Below, piece by piece: positions 2,521 to 22,792 of a stretch of DNA of 24,614 nt. The notes below the pieces were generated by a model. That model was not told the DNA's origin. It was given only the letters and a program-made list of their open reading frames with translations, and made no database searches. Each line of letters begins with the position of its first letter. The stretch's first letter is position 1. The stretch comes from a virus, in IMG/VR virus record IMGVR_UViG_3300032053_000493, positions 1-24,614 of that record. One strand, given 5' to 3'. Both the position numbers and the translations under genes were made by a program.

Positions 2521-2539
2521 ACGGATAATAGAGCTATAA
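2521..2539 (-). promoter_or_regulatory. 19-bp motif shared with 22774-22792
   Basis: The minus strand reads TTATAGCTCTATTATCCGT. The plus strand at 22774-22792 is identical except for one base. The motif here overlaps the TAG stop of the upstream gene and lies 72 bp before the next start (2449). The other copy follows the portal stop and lies 92 bp before the next start. A promoter or processing site used by both modules is possible; the role is unknown. Confidence 0.35.
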
Positions 2540-8519: not shown

Positions 8520-8522
8520 TTG

Positions 8523-8660
8523 TTAATAGCCCAATAGTTCTAACTGATGGGCCTCAGCTTTAATGGTTATAAAATTGTTAGTCACACTAAACTCATATAT
8601 AAAGTGTGCAATGTCTTTAAAGAGATAGAACTCTTTAATTGTAAGTGTTACCTGTTTCAT
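8523..8660 (-). CDS. Small phage protein (45 residues)
   Basis: I found this frame by eye: ATG 8660-8658, TAA 8525-8523. It reads MKQVTLTIKEFYLF, then a helix, and ends with TIKAEAHQLELLGY, the compact beta-alpha-beta look of small Bacteroidota phage proteins that I have seen ending in A-x-x-LE-LGY. The downstream gene starts 3 bp later, supporting co-translation. Function unknown. It directly follows the large hairpin-rich spacer. Confidence 0.65.
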   Translation of the reverse strand: MKQVTLTIKEFYLFKDIAHFIYEFSVTNNFITIKAEAHQLELLGY

Positions 8661-9169
8661 GTTAATGAATTTTTATAGGTGATGAATATGAATACAGAAA
8701 AGTAAAGCAGTTTACTAGTAGTCTTGCTTAGGACTGGCACAGTTTAGTACCATAAGAAGGTTGGGACTTACATCTCTAAAGTCAGTAAAGAGAAGGCCAC
8801 GTGTTGAGTTGTTTGTTACATAAAGGTTAGCCACTTAACGTATGGCTTGGGTCATCTAGTGTGTCCCTTACGGCTTTGTTTGTTTATCTTAAGCTAATAG
8901 CATTGTTGTTCTCCTTATGCTTAAAGTCTACTCTCTCTATGAAATTTGAGATTTGGAAGAGGAAGGACATACCTGTTGGGTATGATTAGGCTGTCTACTA
9001 TATAGCTCAATATATACAGTAAGTGGACTACACCACTATATGACTAACCTTTTATCTCCTTCTGCACGAGCAGAATTGGTATGTGCACTACCAATAATTT
9101 ATATAACAAACAGGTGCTCTAGATGTCTTAGTAGGGCCTCAGTCCCATACCTGTTTATTACAATCTTCT
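8661..9169 (-). ncRNA. 509-nt non-coding hairpin array
   Basis: No gene is supported. Perfect inverted repeats run almost end to end: AAACAGGT/ACCTGTTT (9108-9115 with 9149-9156, enclosing a GGG/CCC hairpin), ATTGGTA/TACCAAT (9075-9095), TTCTGC-ACGA-GCAGAA (9060-9075), AGTGG/CCACT (9022-9037), CATACC/GGTATG (8968-8984), AGCCA/TGGCT (8829-8847), GACTT/AAGTC (8765-8783) and AGTAAA-GCAG-TTTACT (8701-8716). No tRNA T-loop or anticodon arm is recognisable. On the minus strand it would be the 3' region of 9170-9532 and the leader of 8523-8660, or a separate RNA. Confidence 0.5.
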
Positions 9170-10095: not shown

Positions 10096-10401
10096 TTAAC
10101 TCCAACTACTACTAGTGTAATACTTCTGTAAGTAAGATATAACACTATCAATCATTGGATACTCTTCCTTCCAAAGTTCTGAATTCTTGTAATACTCTCT
10201 AACAGAGTTCTCCCCATCTTCCAACTGTAAACCACAAGCTAACTGAAATCCTATAGTGTCGTACCAGTTAAACACTTCTCCACCCCACCATTTAGAATGA
10301 TGAGTGCAGTTGAATACATCCTGACATATAAGTTCATCAACTTGAACTAATGCCACTGTTTCTTTTGTTTGCTTATTAAGCAATTGAAAATTTACTGCCA
10401 T
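10096..10401 (-). CDS. Phage protein of unknown function
   Basis: The 101-residue protein starts MAVNFQLLNKQTKETVALVQVDELIC. A tryptophan- and His/Cys-containing middle (CTHHSKWWGGEVFNWYD, residues about 32-48) and a C-terminal helix before a serine-rich end follow. C32, H34 and H35 might form part of a metal site, but no full motif is present. It is the first gene downstream of the large hairpin spacer at 10402-11033 and is followed by a strong terminator. Confidence 0.65.
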   Translation of the reverse strand: MAVNFQLLNKQTKETVALVQVDELICQDVFNCTHHSKWWGGEVFNWYDTIGFQLACGLQLEDGENSVREYYKNSELWKEEYPMIDSVISYLQKYYTSSSWS

Positions 10402-11033
10402 AACATTGTTGTCTATTATAAGGAAGACATGTCCTTTTAAAGTTTAGGACTCAGGGATGCAGACCACATCCCTGATAGTAATAGTTTTTAGTTAAAATAA
10501 CTGAACTAGAATAACAACGCCTAATTGTTAACAGTGTCTCCACACCATATAGCCCAGCATGTTAGATAGGTTTACCACAAACCTAAGAGAGGTATAGACA
10601 TGTGGTTTATATGTCTATATACAACATTTGCATGCTGTAATACATTGTATGTTACCATACTTTAAAGTCTCTTACTAGAACTGTATCATCTTTCTAATAA
10701 GTAGACTGCTTGGTTTTATAGTCTGCACTAACTTGTCATTAAACACCCTATCAAAGTGTTCTATATACTGTAAGGAAGATTGATAGTCTCCTTTACAGAA
10801 CAACATAGTAGCCCCACAAGCTTGTAAGAGTTTATACATCTCTCAAGAATTATAGCTATCTGATCCGAGCCCAAAATGTATAACAGGCTGATTTCTAACA
10901 GTTTAGAAAAGGAAAGATGTGTGTCTGCCACTGTTAAGCATACACACATCTGTGCTGGAAGTAATGGCTGAAGCGTAACCTGCAGTAGATCTGTTGTAGA
11001 TAAGCTGCAGGTACGCACTTGTGGCCCCCTGAA
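10402..11033 (-). ncRNA. 632-nt hairpin array / candidate large structured RNA
   Basis: The spacer is nearly tiled by inverted repeats: a 12-bp bulged stem (10973-11016), AGATGTGTGT/ACACACATCT (10915-10951), TTTCTAA/TTAGAAA (10892-10909), ACAAGCTTGT (10816-10825), CTGTA-AGGA/TCCT-T-TACAG (10768-10798), AACAC/GTGTT (10742-10760), AGACT/AGTCT (10703-10724), CTTACTAGAA/TTCTAATAAG (10671-10701), GTATG/CATAC (10647-10660), ATAGACAT/ATGTCTAT (10594-10618), TAGGTTT/AAACCTA (10567-10585), GTGT/ACAC (10534-10545), TAACAA/TTGTTA (10512-10530), CAGGGATG/CATCCCTG (10452-10474) and GTCCT/AGGAC (10431-10450). No tRNA or known RNA family is recognised. The one open frame inside (10761-11018) is crossed by these repeats and looks spurious. 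Confidence 0.55.
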
Positions 11034-11303
11034 TTAATCAGGGGTGCACCACATTAGGTCCATTGGTTTGTCTTCCTGGTCTAATACCGCTACCTTGGTA
11101 AGAGATACAGGTAATGACTCACCACGTACACACCCTAATGCGTTAGCATTTTCTAGAGCAAAGAATCCGAATTTCACGTTTTCTACTTGTACGCTTAATT
11201 GTACATCTTGACCCTTAATCTTTACAGTTTTCTTGGTCAAGTTCTTGTCGCTTACTACGACACCATTGCCACTCTCGGTGACTTTTACAAAAAATGCTGG
11301 CAT
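11034..11303 (-). CDS. Small, probably highly expressed phage protein
   Basis: I choose ATG 11303-11301 (MPAFFVKVTESGNGVVV), giving 89 residues. The longer frame from 11381 would read through a hairpin-forming leader. The protein is beta-rich (TVKIKGQDVQLSVQVENVKFGFF landmark near residues 28-50) and acidic at the end (LDQEDKPMDLMW). It uses more C-ending codons (ACC, AAC, GTC, AGC, GAC, TTC) than other leftward genes, resembling the capsid gene. That suggests high expression. It is the first gene of the leftward module next to the divergent control region. Function unknown; an abundant nucleic-acid-binding or structural role is possible. Confidence 0.75.
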   Translation of the reverse strand: MPAFFVKVTESGNGVVVSDKNLTKKTVKIKGQDVQLSVQVENVKFGFFALENANALGCVRGESLPVSLTKVAVLDQEDKPMDLMWCTPD

Positions 11304-11474
11304 GTTTAAAGTTTTAGGTTTTGCCAATACGGGGGTAATCCCGGCTACTTTTAAGTGGGGGAGCAGATGGGTAGTAGGCAACCACCCTGTGTAACACGTT
11401 ACATTTTTTTAGGGTAGAAAAATTTTTTTATAAAACCAGAGAATTTTAGTATATTATATTATAAACTAGTAAAC
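11304..11474. promoter_or_regulatory. Divergent control region between the two modules
   Basis: Leftward transcription starts toward 11303 and rightward toward 11475. The leftward leader can form GGGTGGT/ACTACCC on the minus strand (7 bp with one G-U) and a CGGG/CCCG hairpin. A dyad TGTAAC-AC-GTTACA lies at 11390-11403. The rightward side is very AT-rich with AGTATATTATATTATA just before the ATG. No clear TAnnTTTG box is present, so a phage-encoded polymerase or another promoter type may be used. Confidence 0.5.
11390..11403. promoter_or_regulatory. Dyad operator candidate TGTAACACGTTACA
   Basis: A perfect 6-bp inverted repeat with a 2-bp centre lies in the divergent control region, about 70 bp from the rightward start and 87 bp from the leftward start. 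It could be a repressor site or an RNA hairpin in the leftward leader. Confidence 0.4.
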
Positions 11475-17696: not shown

Positions 17697-19901
17697 TTGA
17701 ATCAGAATAATTTCATAGAAGTTTCTACATACGAGAATGGTCTTTGGACTATCACCGAGTTTCAAACAAGGGAAGAGTTCAGAGACTTTCTATTATTTAT
17801 ATTTAAAGAACCAGGAGAGTATGAGTTTGATGAATCTTCTTTAATGTTTAATGCTGAAGCTAGAAAGTTTCAGAAGCAAAAGTTTTATTGTTCTGCTCCT
17901 ATAAAAACTAAAGACTTTATAACTTATTGGGATGACCAAAAAGCTAAGTGTAGAAGTGGAGTGATAATTAAAAATAATGGCAAGACATGGTATCTCTCTA
18001 GAGACTATTACATGTGGCTTAACTTTCTTCCCATCTATGATAAAGAAGAAAAACGTTTTGACTTTGCTAAGGTGAGAGATGCACAATATCACATGGCTCT
18101 ATATGAACACTTAGCTGAACTACACTATAAGCATGCTGTTATTTTAAAAAAACGTCAGATAGCCAGTTCTTATTTTCATATGGCTAAGTTTATTAACCAA
18201 TGGTATTTTGAAGAAGGAGCCGTATTAAAGATAGGAGCTAGTCTAAAAGATTATATAAATGAGAAGGGGTCATGGAAGTTTCTTAATGAATATAAGAACT
18301 TCTTAAATGAACACACTGCATGGTATAGACCAGCTGAACCAGATAAGGTGGGAGCATGGCAACAGCAGATTAAAGTGAGGATTAACAATAGGGATACATA
18401 CAAAGGATTAAAGGGTACTATTAACTCTTATTCATTTGAGAAAGATCCCACCAATGGTGTGGGTGGACCTGTCACCTACTTCTTTCATGAGGAAGCAGGT
18501 ATTGCTCCTAAGATGAATGACACTTATGGTTTCATGAAGCCAGCTCTTAAATCAGGTCATATTATCACAGGGCAGTTTATAGCTGCTGGATCAGTGGGTG
18601 ATCTAGATCAATGTGAACCTTTAAAAGAATACATTTTACAGCCAGAAGAAAATGGTTTCTATGGAGTGCCTTCTACATTAATAGATAAGGATGGTACAGT
18701 GGGGATTACAGGATTATTTATTCCAGAACAATGGAGCATGCCTCCATATATAGACAACTATGGTAATTCTAAAGTGGAAGAAGCTTTAGATGCTCTTGAT
18801 TTAGAGTTTGAGAAAGCTAAAAAGAATATGGATCCAGCTGCCTATCAGCTAACCATATCTCAGCATCCCCGTACAATAGAAGAAGCTTTTGCTACACGTA
18901 AGGTGAGTGTGTTTCCGAGTCATTTGGTTTCCAAACAGATGCAACGAATAGCTGAGAAAGAATATCCAGTGGAATATTTAGAGCTTAGTAGAAATGCTGA
19001 GGGTAAGATAATAGACACCCCTTCTAGAAAAATTCCTATCACTGAGTTTCCCATATCTAAGAAAACAGAAGATAAAGAAGGTGTTATATGTATTTATGAA
19101 CGTCCTCATAAAGATCCTACATTTGGAATGTATTATGGCTCTGTGGATCCAGTAGGGGAGGGGAAGACCACTACATCAGAATCATTATGTTCTATATACA
19201 TATATAAAAACCCAGTGGAGATTATACAAGATGATGGAGATGGAAAGGTGAAGAACACTATAGAACGTGATGCTATAGTGGCTAGCTGGTGTGGTAGGTT
19301 TGATGATATTAATAAAACCCATGAGAGATTAGAACTTCTTATAGAATGGTATAATGCATGGACTATAGTGGAGAATAACGTAGCTTTGTTTATACAGTAT
19401 ATGATATCTAGAAAGAGACAAAAATATCTAGTACCTAAAGATATGATATTGTTTCTTAAGGACATAGGAGCAAACAGAAATGTATTCCAACAGTATGGGT
19501 GGAAGAATGTAGGGGTGATATTTAAAGGTACTATTCTAAGCTATGGTATAGAATTTCTACAAGAAGAGCTTGACACTGAAACTTTACCAGATGGCACTAT
19601 AGTTAAAACTATATATGGAGTGCAGCGTATACCTGATATTATGTTACTTAAAGAAATGCAAGCATATAGAGATGGGCTAAACGTGGATAGACTTGTAGCC
19701 TTTTGTTCTCTTATAGCATTTGCTAAAGTGCAACAATCTAATAGAGGATTGGCTAAACGTATAGAAGTTAAGAAGGATAATTTGGCTAACTCCCAAAAAT
19801 TTAGTAAATTAAACTATAGTCCTTTTAGGCATATTGGTGGTTCTACCAAAAATAATGGTCTGTTAAGACCTTCTCGTAACGCATTTAAAAACATGAGATA
19901 A
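17697..19901 (+). CDS. terL: Large terminase subunit (TerL)
   Basis: This 734-residue protein is the ATPase-nuclease that packages DNA through the portal. The ATPase half has a degenerate Walker A (K151-KRQIASSY159), Walker B T260-YFFHEEAG267 with an HEE triplet, and a coupling motif A296-AGSVGD302. The nuclease half has D484 in GSVDPVGEGK, E559 in VENN and D664 in NVDRLVAF, fitting the three acidic residues of the RNase-H fold. I use the TTG start at 17697 because no in-frame ATG gives the same N-terminus and the frame opens there; an ATG 50 residues in would cut the domain. The missing GKT/GKS Walker A is a feature of crAss-like TerL. Confidence 0.92.
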   Translation: MNQNNFIEVSTYENGLWTITEFQTREEFRDFLLFIFKEPGEYEFDESSLMFNAEARKFQKQKFYCSAPIKTKDFITYWDDQKAKCRSGVIIKNNGKTWYLSRDYYMWLNFLPIYDKEEKRFDFAKVRDAQYHMALYEHLAELHYKHAVILKKRQIASSYFHMAKFINQWYFEEGAVLKIGASLKDYINEKGSWKFLNEYKNFLNEHTAWYRPAEPDKVGAWQQQIKVRINNRDTYKGLKGTINSYSFEKDPTNGVGGPVTYFFHEEAGIAPKMNDTYGFMKPALKSGHIITGQFIAAGSVGDLDQCEPLKEYILQPEENGFYGVPSTLIDKDGTVGITGLFIPEQWSMPPYIDNYGNSKVEEALDALDLEFEKAKKNMDPAAYQLTISQHPRTIEEAFATRKVSVFPSHLVSKQMQRIAEKEYPVEYLELSRNAEGKIIDTPSRKIPITEFPISKKTEDKEGVICIYERPHKDPTFGMYYGSVDPVGEGKTTTSESLCSIYIYKNPVEIIQDDGDGKVKNTIERDAIVASWCGRFDDINKTHERLELLIEWYNAWTIVENNVALFIQYMISRKRQKYLVPKDMILFLKDIGANRNVFQQYGWKNVGVIFKGTILSYGIEFLQEELDTETLPDGTIVKTIYGVQRIPDIMLLKEMQAYRDGLNVDRLVAFCSLIAFAKVQQSNRGLAKRIEVKKDNLANSQKFSKLNYSPFRHIGGSTKNNGLLRPSRNAFKNMR

Positions 19902-20022: not shown

Positions 20023-22773
20023 ATGCAGATATATAACGCCCTACAACTTAAGAAAGGAGCTAAGGTGGAGTACAATAAGATGGGTACTCTTATTCAGCCT
20101 TTTCAGTTTGTATCAGAAAAAGAAAAAGATGAAGAGTGGAGAGCATGGAATCTTGACTGGTTAGAGTTTCAGGGTATGAAACAGCTCAGACGTAATGCTA
20201 GACGTTTAATGAAAAACTATAAACTAGCTAAAGGTATTATAGATAAGCAAGATTACATTGTAGAAGAAGATAATGAAATGGCTGATCTTATAGACACTCT
20301 CACTAAAGAAGATGTATCTGCATTTGAACTTAAGTTCTACCCTATTATTCCTAATGTAATTAATGTTCTTACCAATGAGTTTTCTAAACGTAGCTCTAAA
20401 ATTATGTTTAGAGCTATTGATGATATTTCATATAATGAAATGTTGGAAGAGAAACGTTCAATGATTGAAGAAGTTTTATTAGGGGAAGCTAAGCAAAAAC
20501 AACTTATAAAAATGCTAGAGATGGGCATGGATCCTGGTAGTGAAGAAGCTCAGCAGGAAATGAGTCCTGATAAACTTAAAAGTCTTCCTGAAATAGAACA
20601 GTTTTTTAAGAAAGACTATAGGTCTATGATTGAAGAGTGGGCTACACATCAGATGAAAGTGGATGAAGAAAGGTTTAAAATGCAAGAGTTAGAAGAACGT
20701 GCGTTTAGAGATATGCTTATTACAGATAGAGAGTTCTGGCATTTTGATATGAAAGAAGATGATTATGAAATGGAATTATGGAATCCTCTTCTTACATTTT
20801 ACCATAAAAGTCCTGATGTACGTTATGTATCTCAAGGTAACTGGGTTGGTAAACTAGATATGATGTCTATATCAGATGTTATAGATAAGTTTGGTTGGAT
20901 GATGACACAAGATCAGTTAGAAGCTTTAGAAGCTATTTATCCAGCTAGATCTGCAGGTTATGCTATACAAGGATACCAAAATGATGGTACATACTATGAC
21001 CCTACAAGATCTCACGAGTGGAATACACAAATGCCTTCTTTGGCTTATAGACAGTTTACTAGTCTTTATGATGCTGGATCTCAGTTTGGAGATATTGTAC
21101 AGTGGATACTATCAGACTCTGAAGACTTACAAGACTTTGGTAAGTCTTATATGCTTAGAGTTTCTACAATCTATTGGAAAAGTCAAAGAAAAGTGGGCCA
21201 TCTCACTAAGATTAATAATAATGGTGAAGTTATACAAGATATTATTTCTGAAGAATATAAAATAACAGATAAACCAGAATATAATACAGCAGTTTATAAA
21301 ATGAAAACTAAAGACAATTTAGTTTTTGGTGAGCATATAGATTGGATATGGATTAATGAAGTTTGGGGTGGTATTAAGATTGGTCCTAACAGACCTGCAT
21401 TCTGGGGGATGAATAATCCAGGTGGTATCAATCCTATATATTTAGGACTTAATGGAGGCAGACCAGGACGTGTTCCTTTTCAGTTTAAAGGAGATGCCAC
21501 TATATATGGTTGTAAACTTCCTGTAGAAGGAGCTGTGTTTGGAGATAGAAATACTAGATCAGTAAGTCTTGTTGATATTATGAAACCTTTTCAGATTGGT
21601 TATAATATAGTAAATAATCAAATAGCTGATATCTTAGTAGATGAACTTGGTACTGTTATTATGCTTGATCAGAATGCTCTACCACGTCACTCTTTGGGAG
21701 AAGACTGGGGGAAGAACAATCTATCTAAGGCTTATGTAGCTATGAAGAACTTTCAGATGCTACCATTAGATACGTCTATAACTAACACTGAGAATGCTCT
21801 TAACTTTCAACACTATCAGGTTTTAAACTTAGAACAAACTCAACGTTTACTATCTAGAATACAATTAGCTAACTATTTTAAGAATGAAGCTTTTGCTGTA
21901 ATAGGACTTAATCAGCAACGTATGGGTGCTCAGATAGCTCAACAACAAACTGCCACAGCTGTAGAACAAGCTATGAATGCTTCTTATGCACAAACAGAAC
22001 AATACTTTATACAACATAGTGATAACCTTATGCCTAGGGTACATCAGATGAGAACTGACTTAGCTCAGTATTATCATTCTAAGAAACCTAGTATACGTCT
22101 TCAGTATATTACAGGAACAGATGAAAAGGTTAACTTTCAAATGAATGGTGCAGATTTTCTTATGAGAGATCTTAATATATTTTGCACTACTAAAACTAAC
22201 TCTCGTAATATAATGGAGCAGCTTAAACAACTAGCTATTAGTAATAATACAATGGGTGCTTCTATATATGATTTAGGAAATGTTATTAAATCTGAATCTA
22301 TAGCTGAACTTACTGGTGTTCTTAAATCAGCTGAAGAAAAAGTACAGGCTCAGAAACAAGCTGAAATGCAGCAGCAGCAGCAAATGCAACAAGAACAGAT
22401 ACAAGCTCAGCAGCAGCAGTTACAAACAAAAATGCAGTTTGATGCTGAGGAAGCTGAAAAAAATAGACAAGTACAGGTTACTATTGCTGAAATTAGAGCT
22501 GCTGGTATGGGAGCTATGACTGATATTAATAAAAATCAGCAGTCTGATTACCAAGATGCTATGGTTAAAATTCAGAAAGAACAGAATTATCAAGAAACTA
22601 TGAACTTTAAACGTGAGCAGGAAGTTGGTAAAAATAATCAGGCTACAGAAAAACATAATATAGAAAGAGAGAAATTACAAACGCAAAAAGAAATAGCTGA
22701 TAGACAGCTTCAAATTGCTAGAGAAAACAAAAATAAGTATGATGTTAAGAGTTCTTCTGAAAAGAAAAAATAA
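20023..22773 (+). CDS. Portal protein
   Basis: At 916 residues this fits the unusually large portal of crAss-like phages. It follows TerL and precedes the head protein. The body (about residues 1-760) is mixed alpha/beta with many aromatic residues, for instance FWHFDMKEDDYEMELWNP (landmark near residues 237-253) and a GRPGRVPFQFKG segment near 480. The last part (about residues 765-916) is a long, charged, glutamine-rich coiled coil, with a Q-run near 781-803. In the capsid this dodecameric ring would be the DNA channel and terminase docking site. I identify it by position, size and pattern. The glutamine-rich tail might be internal (cargo-facing) in the head. Confidence 0.85.
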   Translation: MQIYNALQLKKGAKVEYNKMGTLIQPFQFVSEKEKDEEWRAWNLDWLEFQGMKQLRRNARRLMKNYKLAKGIIDKQDYIVEEDNEMADLIDTLTKEDVSAFELKFYPIIPNVINVLTNEFSKRSSKIMFRAIDDISYNEMLEEKRSMIEEVLLGEAKQKQLIKMLEMGMDPGSEEAQQEMSPDKLKSLPEIEQFFKKDYRSMIEEWATHQMKVDEERFKMQELEERAFRDMLITDREFWHFDMKEDDYEMELWNPLLTFYHKSPDVRYVSQGNWVGKLDMMSISDVIDKFGWMMTQDQLEALEAIYPARSAGYAIQGYQNDGTYYDPTRSHEWNTQMPSLAYRQFTSLYDAGSQFGDIVQWILSDSEDLQDFGKSYMLRVSTIYWKSQRKVGHLTKINNNGEVIQDIISEEYKITDKPEYNTAVYKMKTKDNLVFGEHIDWIWINEVWGGIKIGPNRPAFWGMNNPGGINPIYLGLNGGRPGRVPFQFKGDATIYGCKLPVEGAVFGDRNTRSVSLVDIMKPFQIGYNIVNNQIADILVDELGTVIMLDQNALPRHSLGEDWGKNNLSKAYVAMKNFQMLPLDTSITNTENALNFQHYQVLNLEQTQRLLSRIQLANYFKNEAFAVIGLNQQRMGAQIAQQQTATAVEQAMNASYAQTEQYFIQHSDNLMPRVHQMRTDLAQYYHSKKPSIRLQYITGTDEKVNFQMNGADFLMRDLNIFCTTKTNSRNIMEQLKQLAISNNTMGASIYDLGNVIKSESIAELTGVLKSAEEKVQAQKQAEMQQQQQMQQEQIQAQQQQLQTKMQFDAEEAEKNRQVQVTIAEIRAAGMGAMTDINKNQQSDYQDAMVKIQKEQNYQETMNFKREQEVGKNNQATEKHNIEREKLQTQKEIADRQLQIARENKNKYDVKSSSEKKK

Positions 22774-22792
22774 TTATAGCTCTATAATCCGT
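22774..22792 (+). promoter_or_regulatory. 19-bp motif shared with 2521-2539, before the head gene
   Basis: TTATAGCTCTATAATCCGT follows the portal stop (22773) in the 111-bp gap to the next gene. It differs by one base from the minus-strand motif at 2521-2539. A weaker copy (15 of 19) is on the plus strand at 10850-10868. The rest of the gap is AT-rich and includes TTAGTATATTTTTACTG, close to the sequence in front of 11475. A promoter or processing site is a guess. Confidence 0.35.

Follow-up and report, generated by a model that had tools for sequence, protein, structure and literature searches.

A Hatchet self-cleaving ribozyme (RF02678) lies within a 632-nt non-coding gap on the minus strand of a 24.6-kb virus record, analysed here over its whole stretch of 24,614 nt (the window). 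We conclude that the gap probably encodes a phage non-coding RNA of ~405 nt (U10846 to ~10442, minus strand) with the Hatchet as its first domain, cut by its own ribozyme. Our computational comparison establishes the Hatchet identity, a conserved architecture with two kissing contacts and a 3′ motif, and a fixed position in crAss-like host phages. The gap separates a gene ending at 11034 from one starting at 10401, and the structured RNA sits on the minus arm just past the divergent start of both gene blocks (~11.4 kb), opposite the terminase (17697–19901, plus strand; PHROG family 6681) and portal (20023–22773, plus strand; PHROG family 6547). Matches to the window's terminase in an annotated phage collection are chiefly Crassvirales, plus phages of Flavobacterium and Cellulophaga and a small number of others.

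Table 1 Features in and around the structured gap of the window.
Feature	Position	Strand	Basis or detail
Small upstream gene, 90 aa counted from ATG	11034..11306	-	ORF list
3′ untranslated stretch of upstream gene, 3–4 hairpins	10867..11033	-	Fold z -3.2
Conserved 17-mer GGATCAGATAGCTATAA abutting the cleavage site	10850..10866	-	Sequence comparison
Hatchet self-cleaving ribozyme (RF02678)	10708..10849	-	Rfam cmscan
P5, long helix immediately 3′ of the ribozyme: AGUC/GACU with 10-bp stem, closed by ACUUUAA	10662..10707	-	
GUAA-tetraloop hairpin, GUAUG-GUAA-CAUAC	10647..10660	-	Sequence comparison
K1 hairpin, loop ACCAC, kisses K2 loop	10593..10619	-	Loop permutation, descriptor scan
K2 hairpin, loop GUGGU	10567..10585	-	Loop permutation, descriptor scan, sequence comparison
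Three-way junction	10501..10557	-	Outer helix J, 10550–10557 with 10501–10508
Junction arm B	10531–10548	-	
Junction arm C, loop UAGGC	10512–10530	-	
Terminal hairpin T, CAGGGAUG-UGGUCUG-CAUCCCUG	10452..10474	-	Loop pairs with arm C loop
3′ tail AGUCCUAAAC, family consensus GUCCUCA	10442..10451	-	
Downstream gene, 101 aa, start ~41 nt past the tail	10096..10401	-	ORF list

The ribozyme matches the Rfam model over its full length (model positions 1–133; 66.3 bits against a gathering score of 51, E 9e-12) and is the only Rfam match across the whole window. It fills about one fifth of a region in which an earlier sequence-only reading had recognised no known RNA signature; that reading had also seen no tRNA, and indeed the gap holds no tRNA or tmRNA match, nor does any other Rfam family match there. 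The window shares with known Hatchets the core sequence, helices P1–P4 and the C|U cleavage site. Its P1 (10822–10846, UGAGAG/CUCUUA) has 6 bp, where 3 or 6 bp are expected, and the conserved P1–P2 linker (ACAA) and P2–P3 bulge (GUGGGGC / GUGCAGAC) are present in the alignment. Because the biochemically mapped Hatchet cuts between C and U at the base of P1 (Li et al. 2015, PMC4604424), cleavage in the window is predicted between C10847 and U10846. About 90% of the Hatchet class carry a P0 hairpin, reported to be dispensable, a few nucleotides 5′ of the cleavage site, whereas in the window a typical P0 is not obvious there and the conserved 17-mer takes the place; the nearest hairpin on that side (10868–10890) lies ~21 nt upstream, with the 17-mer in between.

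The gap as a whole folds well beyond shuffled controls (minus strand -192.3 kcal/mol, shuffled mean -149.5, z -6.0, equalled by none of 20 shuffles). The plus strand scores alike (z -6.2), as expected of DNA rich in inverted repeats, so folding does not give the strand of the RNA; we assign it to the minus strand because the Hatchet match lies there. For its parts, z is -4.3 (conserved 3′ part alone), -3.8 (Hatchet-to-tail unit) and -3.2 (upstream 187 nt); a neighbouring coding stretch gives -1.0. All five stems named in the sequence-only reading are present, at 10915–10951, 10671–10701 (P5), 10594–10618 (K1), 10452–10474 (T) and 10973–11016, and most of its hairpins belong to the conserved minus-strand RNA. 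Its assumption of a single 632-nt RNA is probably wrong. The inferred cleavage site divides the gap into ~187 nt upstream and ~405 nt downstream, followed by a leader of ~40 nt to the next gene, and only the ~405-nt part, from the cleavage site to 10442, belongs to a wider family. The upstream part (10847–11033), which holds a 10-bp and the 12-bp stem, is unconserved apart from the 17-mer, and blastn of this stretch against the relatives found no similarity past it. The sole open reading frame in the gap (10761–11018, 85 aa, GTG start) lies partly over the ribozyme, and the relatives have no homologue of it.

Beyond the known ribozyme, the window adds ~265 nt of conserved 3′ domain, comprising P5, the K1–K2 pair, the three-way junction, T and the tail; the Rfam model extends as far as the 3′ strand of P2, and only P0–P4 are described by Li et al. 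2015 (PMC4604424). The shared extension begins exactly at the end of the Rfam model and is found on the Hatchets of at least 44 viral contigs. A P5 helix and an ACUUUAA-like motif, differing in sequence, follow the ribozyme in nearly all loci, and in gut crAss phages the P5 stretch forms a conserved island (85–94% identity between genera) amid surroundings that are not conserved. The GUAA-tetraloop hairpin is common only to the window and locus L002 (GUGUG-GUAA-CACAC) among the loci inspected. Full structural alignment by MAFFT did not match up the clades correctly, so we anchored the stems manually. The three-way junction arrangement is repeated in 19 other divergent loci, and across the 20 loci the hand-anchored stems vary widely yet stay paired, a count biased by the choice of stems for their pairing. 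Run unsupervised on the 13 sequences of the lake clade, RNAalifold recovered K1, K2, B and C; both partners had changed in 14 of the 32 pairs.

Less biased are a loop permutation test and a descriptor scan. When partners were permuted 2000 times between loci for each of ten loop pairs, K1 with K2 and C with T each gave 0/2000 and the other eight pairs were unremarkable, in a statistic that retains some relatedness among the loci. The K1/K2 loops change together, from ACCAC/GUGGU in the window to UUCCAC/GUGGAA in the lakes, CUCAC/GUGAG in L013 and L035 and GUCACA/UGUGAC in L014, and one position of the contact is seen as A-U, U-A, C-G and G-C in different clades. The window's own C–T contact is weak (UAGGC with GUCUG, partly G-U). 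A K1–K2 descriptor, drawn up after the pattern was seen, found 39 unique matches in 1.44 Mb, 26 of them following a same-strand Hatchet at a distance of 130–300 nt; shuffled DNA gave 12 matches in 1.40 Mb. The T hairpin and tail follow 40 of 48 non-redundant Hatchet loci, as against 0/48 on the opposite strand. A covariance model of the lake clade did not find the window significantly, its best match outside the clade falling in the right slot of L012 (E 0.1), and it returned nothing significant in Hatchet-free crAss genomes; the K1–K2–junction fold of the window therefore rests on the descriptor and loop-pairing tests. Gut-type members have a shorter body of P5, T and tail, down to 185 nt from Hatchet core to tail, and the K1–K2 domain or the tail is missing in several Hatchet loci (gut type I, L032, L044, L055). 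Taken with its occurrence in dozens of phages, the conserved architecture, covarying kissing loops and conserved 3′ end bear out the earlier suggestion of a large structured phage RNA.

The examples of Li et al. 2015 (PMC4604424) are solely metagenomic, without a fully sequenced genome. Our Hatchet-core pattern identified 44 viral stretches, further scans another 20 and a genome collection one more real contig, and the Hatchet exceeded the Rfam cut-off in all 33 contigs tested. CrAss-type TerL and portal genes occur in 30 of these 33, the other three being fragments of 15–23 kb; every Hatchet contig long enough for a terminase is crAss-like. In the window and in 29 of 29 contigs computed, the Hatchet is divergent from TerL and lies 3.5–17.7 kb upstream of it, and a 30th contig (G017) fits this geometry if circular. 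Hatchets occur in 9 of 24 named phages, all Suoliviridae (Uncouvirinae, Loutivirinae, Boorivirinae and Bearivirinae), a count in which weak members could have been missed because the search filters were stricter. The same Rfam search found none in three of three Oafivirinae, in some other Suoliviridae (cr118_1 and the Azobacteroides phage), in the Steigviridae tested (including the cultured crAss001, DAC15 and phi14:2) or in one Crevaviridae genome, and p-crAssphage (Intestiviridae) likewise gave none. Most Hatchet-bearing named Suoliviridae genomes carry no annotation at the RNA site; in cr1_1 (NC_055873) and cr55_1 (NC_055869), the annotation places a homing endonuclease over the Hatchet, where a mobile element may have inserted into the RNA. 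Genome-collection matches in Streptomyces, Leptolyngbya, Prevotella and a Clostridiales MAG lacked a Hatchet context and were dropped as chance. One 100-kb contig in a Sphaerochaeta MAG (MSGT01000071.1; L070, L073) has a crAss-type terminase and portal, in-frame TAG and three Hatchets, and is apparently a misbinned phage.

The RNA persists across members although the flanking genes are mostly non-homologous. The window's upstream gene could not be placed confidently in any Pfam or PHROG family, no relatives were reached by searching with its protein, and blastn of the window's own region against the named phages gave no match; its downstream gene is not homologous to the downstream genes of most other members. 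We favour a self-acting non-coding RNA because the architecture and 3′ end are conserved and the flanking genes mostly unrelated.

Early and middle genes of Crassvirales are transcribed by the virion RNA polymerase (review PMC10136315). In the model we propose, an early-arm transcript would start near the divergent promoter region at ~11.4 kb, enter the small upstream gene, with which the gap would be cotranscribed, and continue through the gap, where the Hatchet would cut at C10847|U10846 in vivo. The upstream mRNA would keep a hairpin-rich 3′ end, and the non-coding RNA would gain a 5′-OH end and be released as a discrete RNA. The remainder would fold into P5, the K1–K2 kissing pair and the three-way junction with arm C kissing T, down to the GUCCU(C)A-like tail, which we take as the 3′ end. 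So compact a body could keep the RNA stable for a role early in infection, which we infer to be played in trans. Re-joining of the cut ends by phage enzymes of the families tested is unlikely: a TROVE protein as partner (crAss001 has one) is absent from all Hatchet phages tested, and neither an RNA ligase nor an RtcB family, either of which might re-ligate or circularise the RNA, was found in them.

Because no recognisable terminator was found after the window's tail and the next gene starts only ~41 nt on (20–60 nt in several other members), the RNA could instead be a leader acting in cis. The Hatchet would then separate the upstream mRNA from the downstream operon with no free RNA, and the structured 3′ part would serve the downstream genes as their 5′ untranslated region, guarding a 5′-OH end or tuning translation. 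We judge this unlikely on balance, while giving it real weight: the downstream genes are mostly unrelated between members, the next feature may be a tRNA-Leu (cr4_1) or lie ~450 nt away (L007), and a hairpin followed by a near-invariant tail fits a 3′ end better.

A further reading concerns the 5′ end in the window's clade. The 17-mer, a possible promoter, abuts the cleavage site, so the RNA may also have a start of its own there. The 17-mer occupies the same place in L002, L004 (one mismatch), L005 and L021, and it includes a TATAAT-like sequence; L008 instead has it ahead of a gene start. If GGATnAGATnGCTATAa drives a start at or just before the Hatchet, the mature RNA would be as we propose, yet not released from a gene transcript, and cleavage would merely trim its 5′ end. 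We know of no phage promoter consensus for this clade, and chance accounted for most matches when viral sequences were scanned for the 17-mer. Many other members have a P0 hairpin at this place, and in L018 ~30 nt separate the end of the upstream gene from the Hatchet core. We hold a promoter of its own to be distinctly unlikely as the source of the RNA.

An aid to DNA packaging or assembly, as for the pRNA of phi29, which also works through kissing loops, would suit the fixed geometry relative to TerL and portal, but is very improbable for an RNA on the opposite, early arm, 3.5–17.7 kb off, and absent as a Hatchet from 15 of 24 crAss-type or related genomes, a loss that packaging could hardly tolerate. 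That the gap holds only chance hairpins or low complexity is scarcely credible: AT-rich phage DNA does form many hairpins and the unconserved 5′ flank folds well too, so that such an origin is possible for 10867–11033, but for 10442–10849 it is already refuted by the Rfam match, fold z, loop permutation, descriptor scan and T-plus-tail counts.

Whether the self-processed RNA of the window typifies Hatchets as a class is a closer call, falling slightly short of even: they may be the domain that processes the 5′ end in a family of non-coding RNAs peculiar to one branch of crAss-like phages, with window-type members adding a 3′ domain that has two kissing contacts and acts in trans early in infection. 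Hatchet ribozymes were reportedly described in 2015 from anonymous metagenome contigs. The ribozyme itself, including its P0 hairpin, is already known, and there appears to be no earlier description of its phage setting or large 3′ domain; the literature covered, mostly other than subscription papers and the original 2015 description, contains no report of Hatchets in Crassvirales or of the 3′ domain. An orphan ribozyme class thereby gains a home in crAss-like phages, and viruses that rank among the most abundant in the human gut acquire an undescribed structured RNA. With the class tied to a defined branch of Crassvirales, to a fixed place where the early arm begins and to a conserved partner structure on its 3′ side, the natural role of Hatchets becomes testable.

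ROOL and GOLLD, to which the sequence-only reading had likened the region, are large phage non-coding RNAs, rich in hairpins and pseudoknots and often near tRNA genes, that form homo-oligomeric nanocages (Kretsch et al. 2025, PMC12286853). The likeness holds as a loose analogy, in that the RNA is a large, hairpin-rich phage RNA with pseudoknots, and some gut relatives lie near tRNA-Leu; it does not extend to sequence, as neither family matched at the Rfam gathering cut-off, nor within the region at E up to 10. Unlike them, the RNA is smaller, carries a ribozyme and was found here only in crAss-like phages. The HDV-like theta ribozymes of gut phages are likewise self-cleaving and found in phages of Bacteroidota, where a role in processing tRNA transcripts is proposed (PMC10879173). 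They belong to another ribozyme class and cut at tRNA 3′ ends, and whereas a phage RNA ligase is reported to be enriched with theta (PMC10879173), the Pfam RNA_ligase model finds none in Hatchet phages.

Some gut crAss phages carry two or three Hatchets per genome (cr115_1, L107; cr53_1, L108; cr4_1, L109; and the MAG contig of L070/L073), with tandem pairs ~100 nt apart in cr53_1, cr4_1 and the MAG contig. A tRNA-Leu lies close to the Hatchets in cr115_1, cr53_1 and cr4_1, and cr115_1 also has a tmRNA and RAGATH-9. Downstream of the first gut Hatchet, in L131–L134, a strongly conserved stretch ~150–330 nt 3′ of the ribozyme, AGTATATTTATATGTGAATA... to AAATCTTCCAGTTT.TACCTATGA, is possibly a further structured RNA. 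In the window, a second gap of 650 nt on the same arm (8520–9169, minus strand; fold z -4.0, no Rfam match) could hold a second structured RNA, and an ORF of ~45 codons at its 3′ end resembles one that precedes the Hatchet in L005 and L021. Finally, a near-palindrome, GGAT(T/A)ATAGAGCTATAA, occurs in the window at 2523–2539 (plus strand) and, directly behind the portal gene, at 22774–22790 (minus strand); similar sites, one or two copies per genome, are present in G001–G004 and G030, and may mark a transcription boundary.
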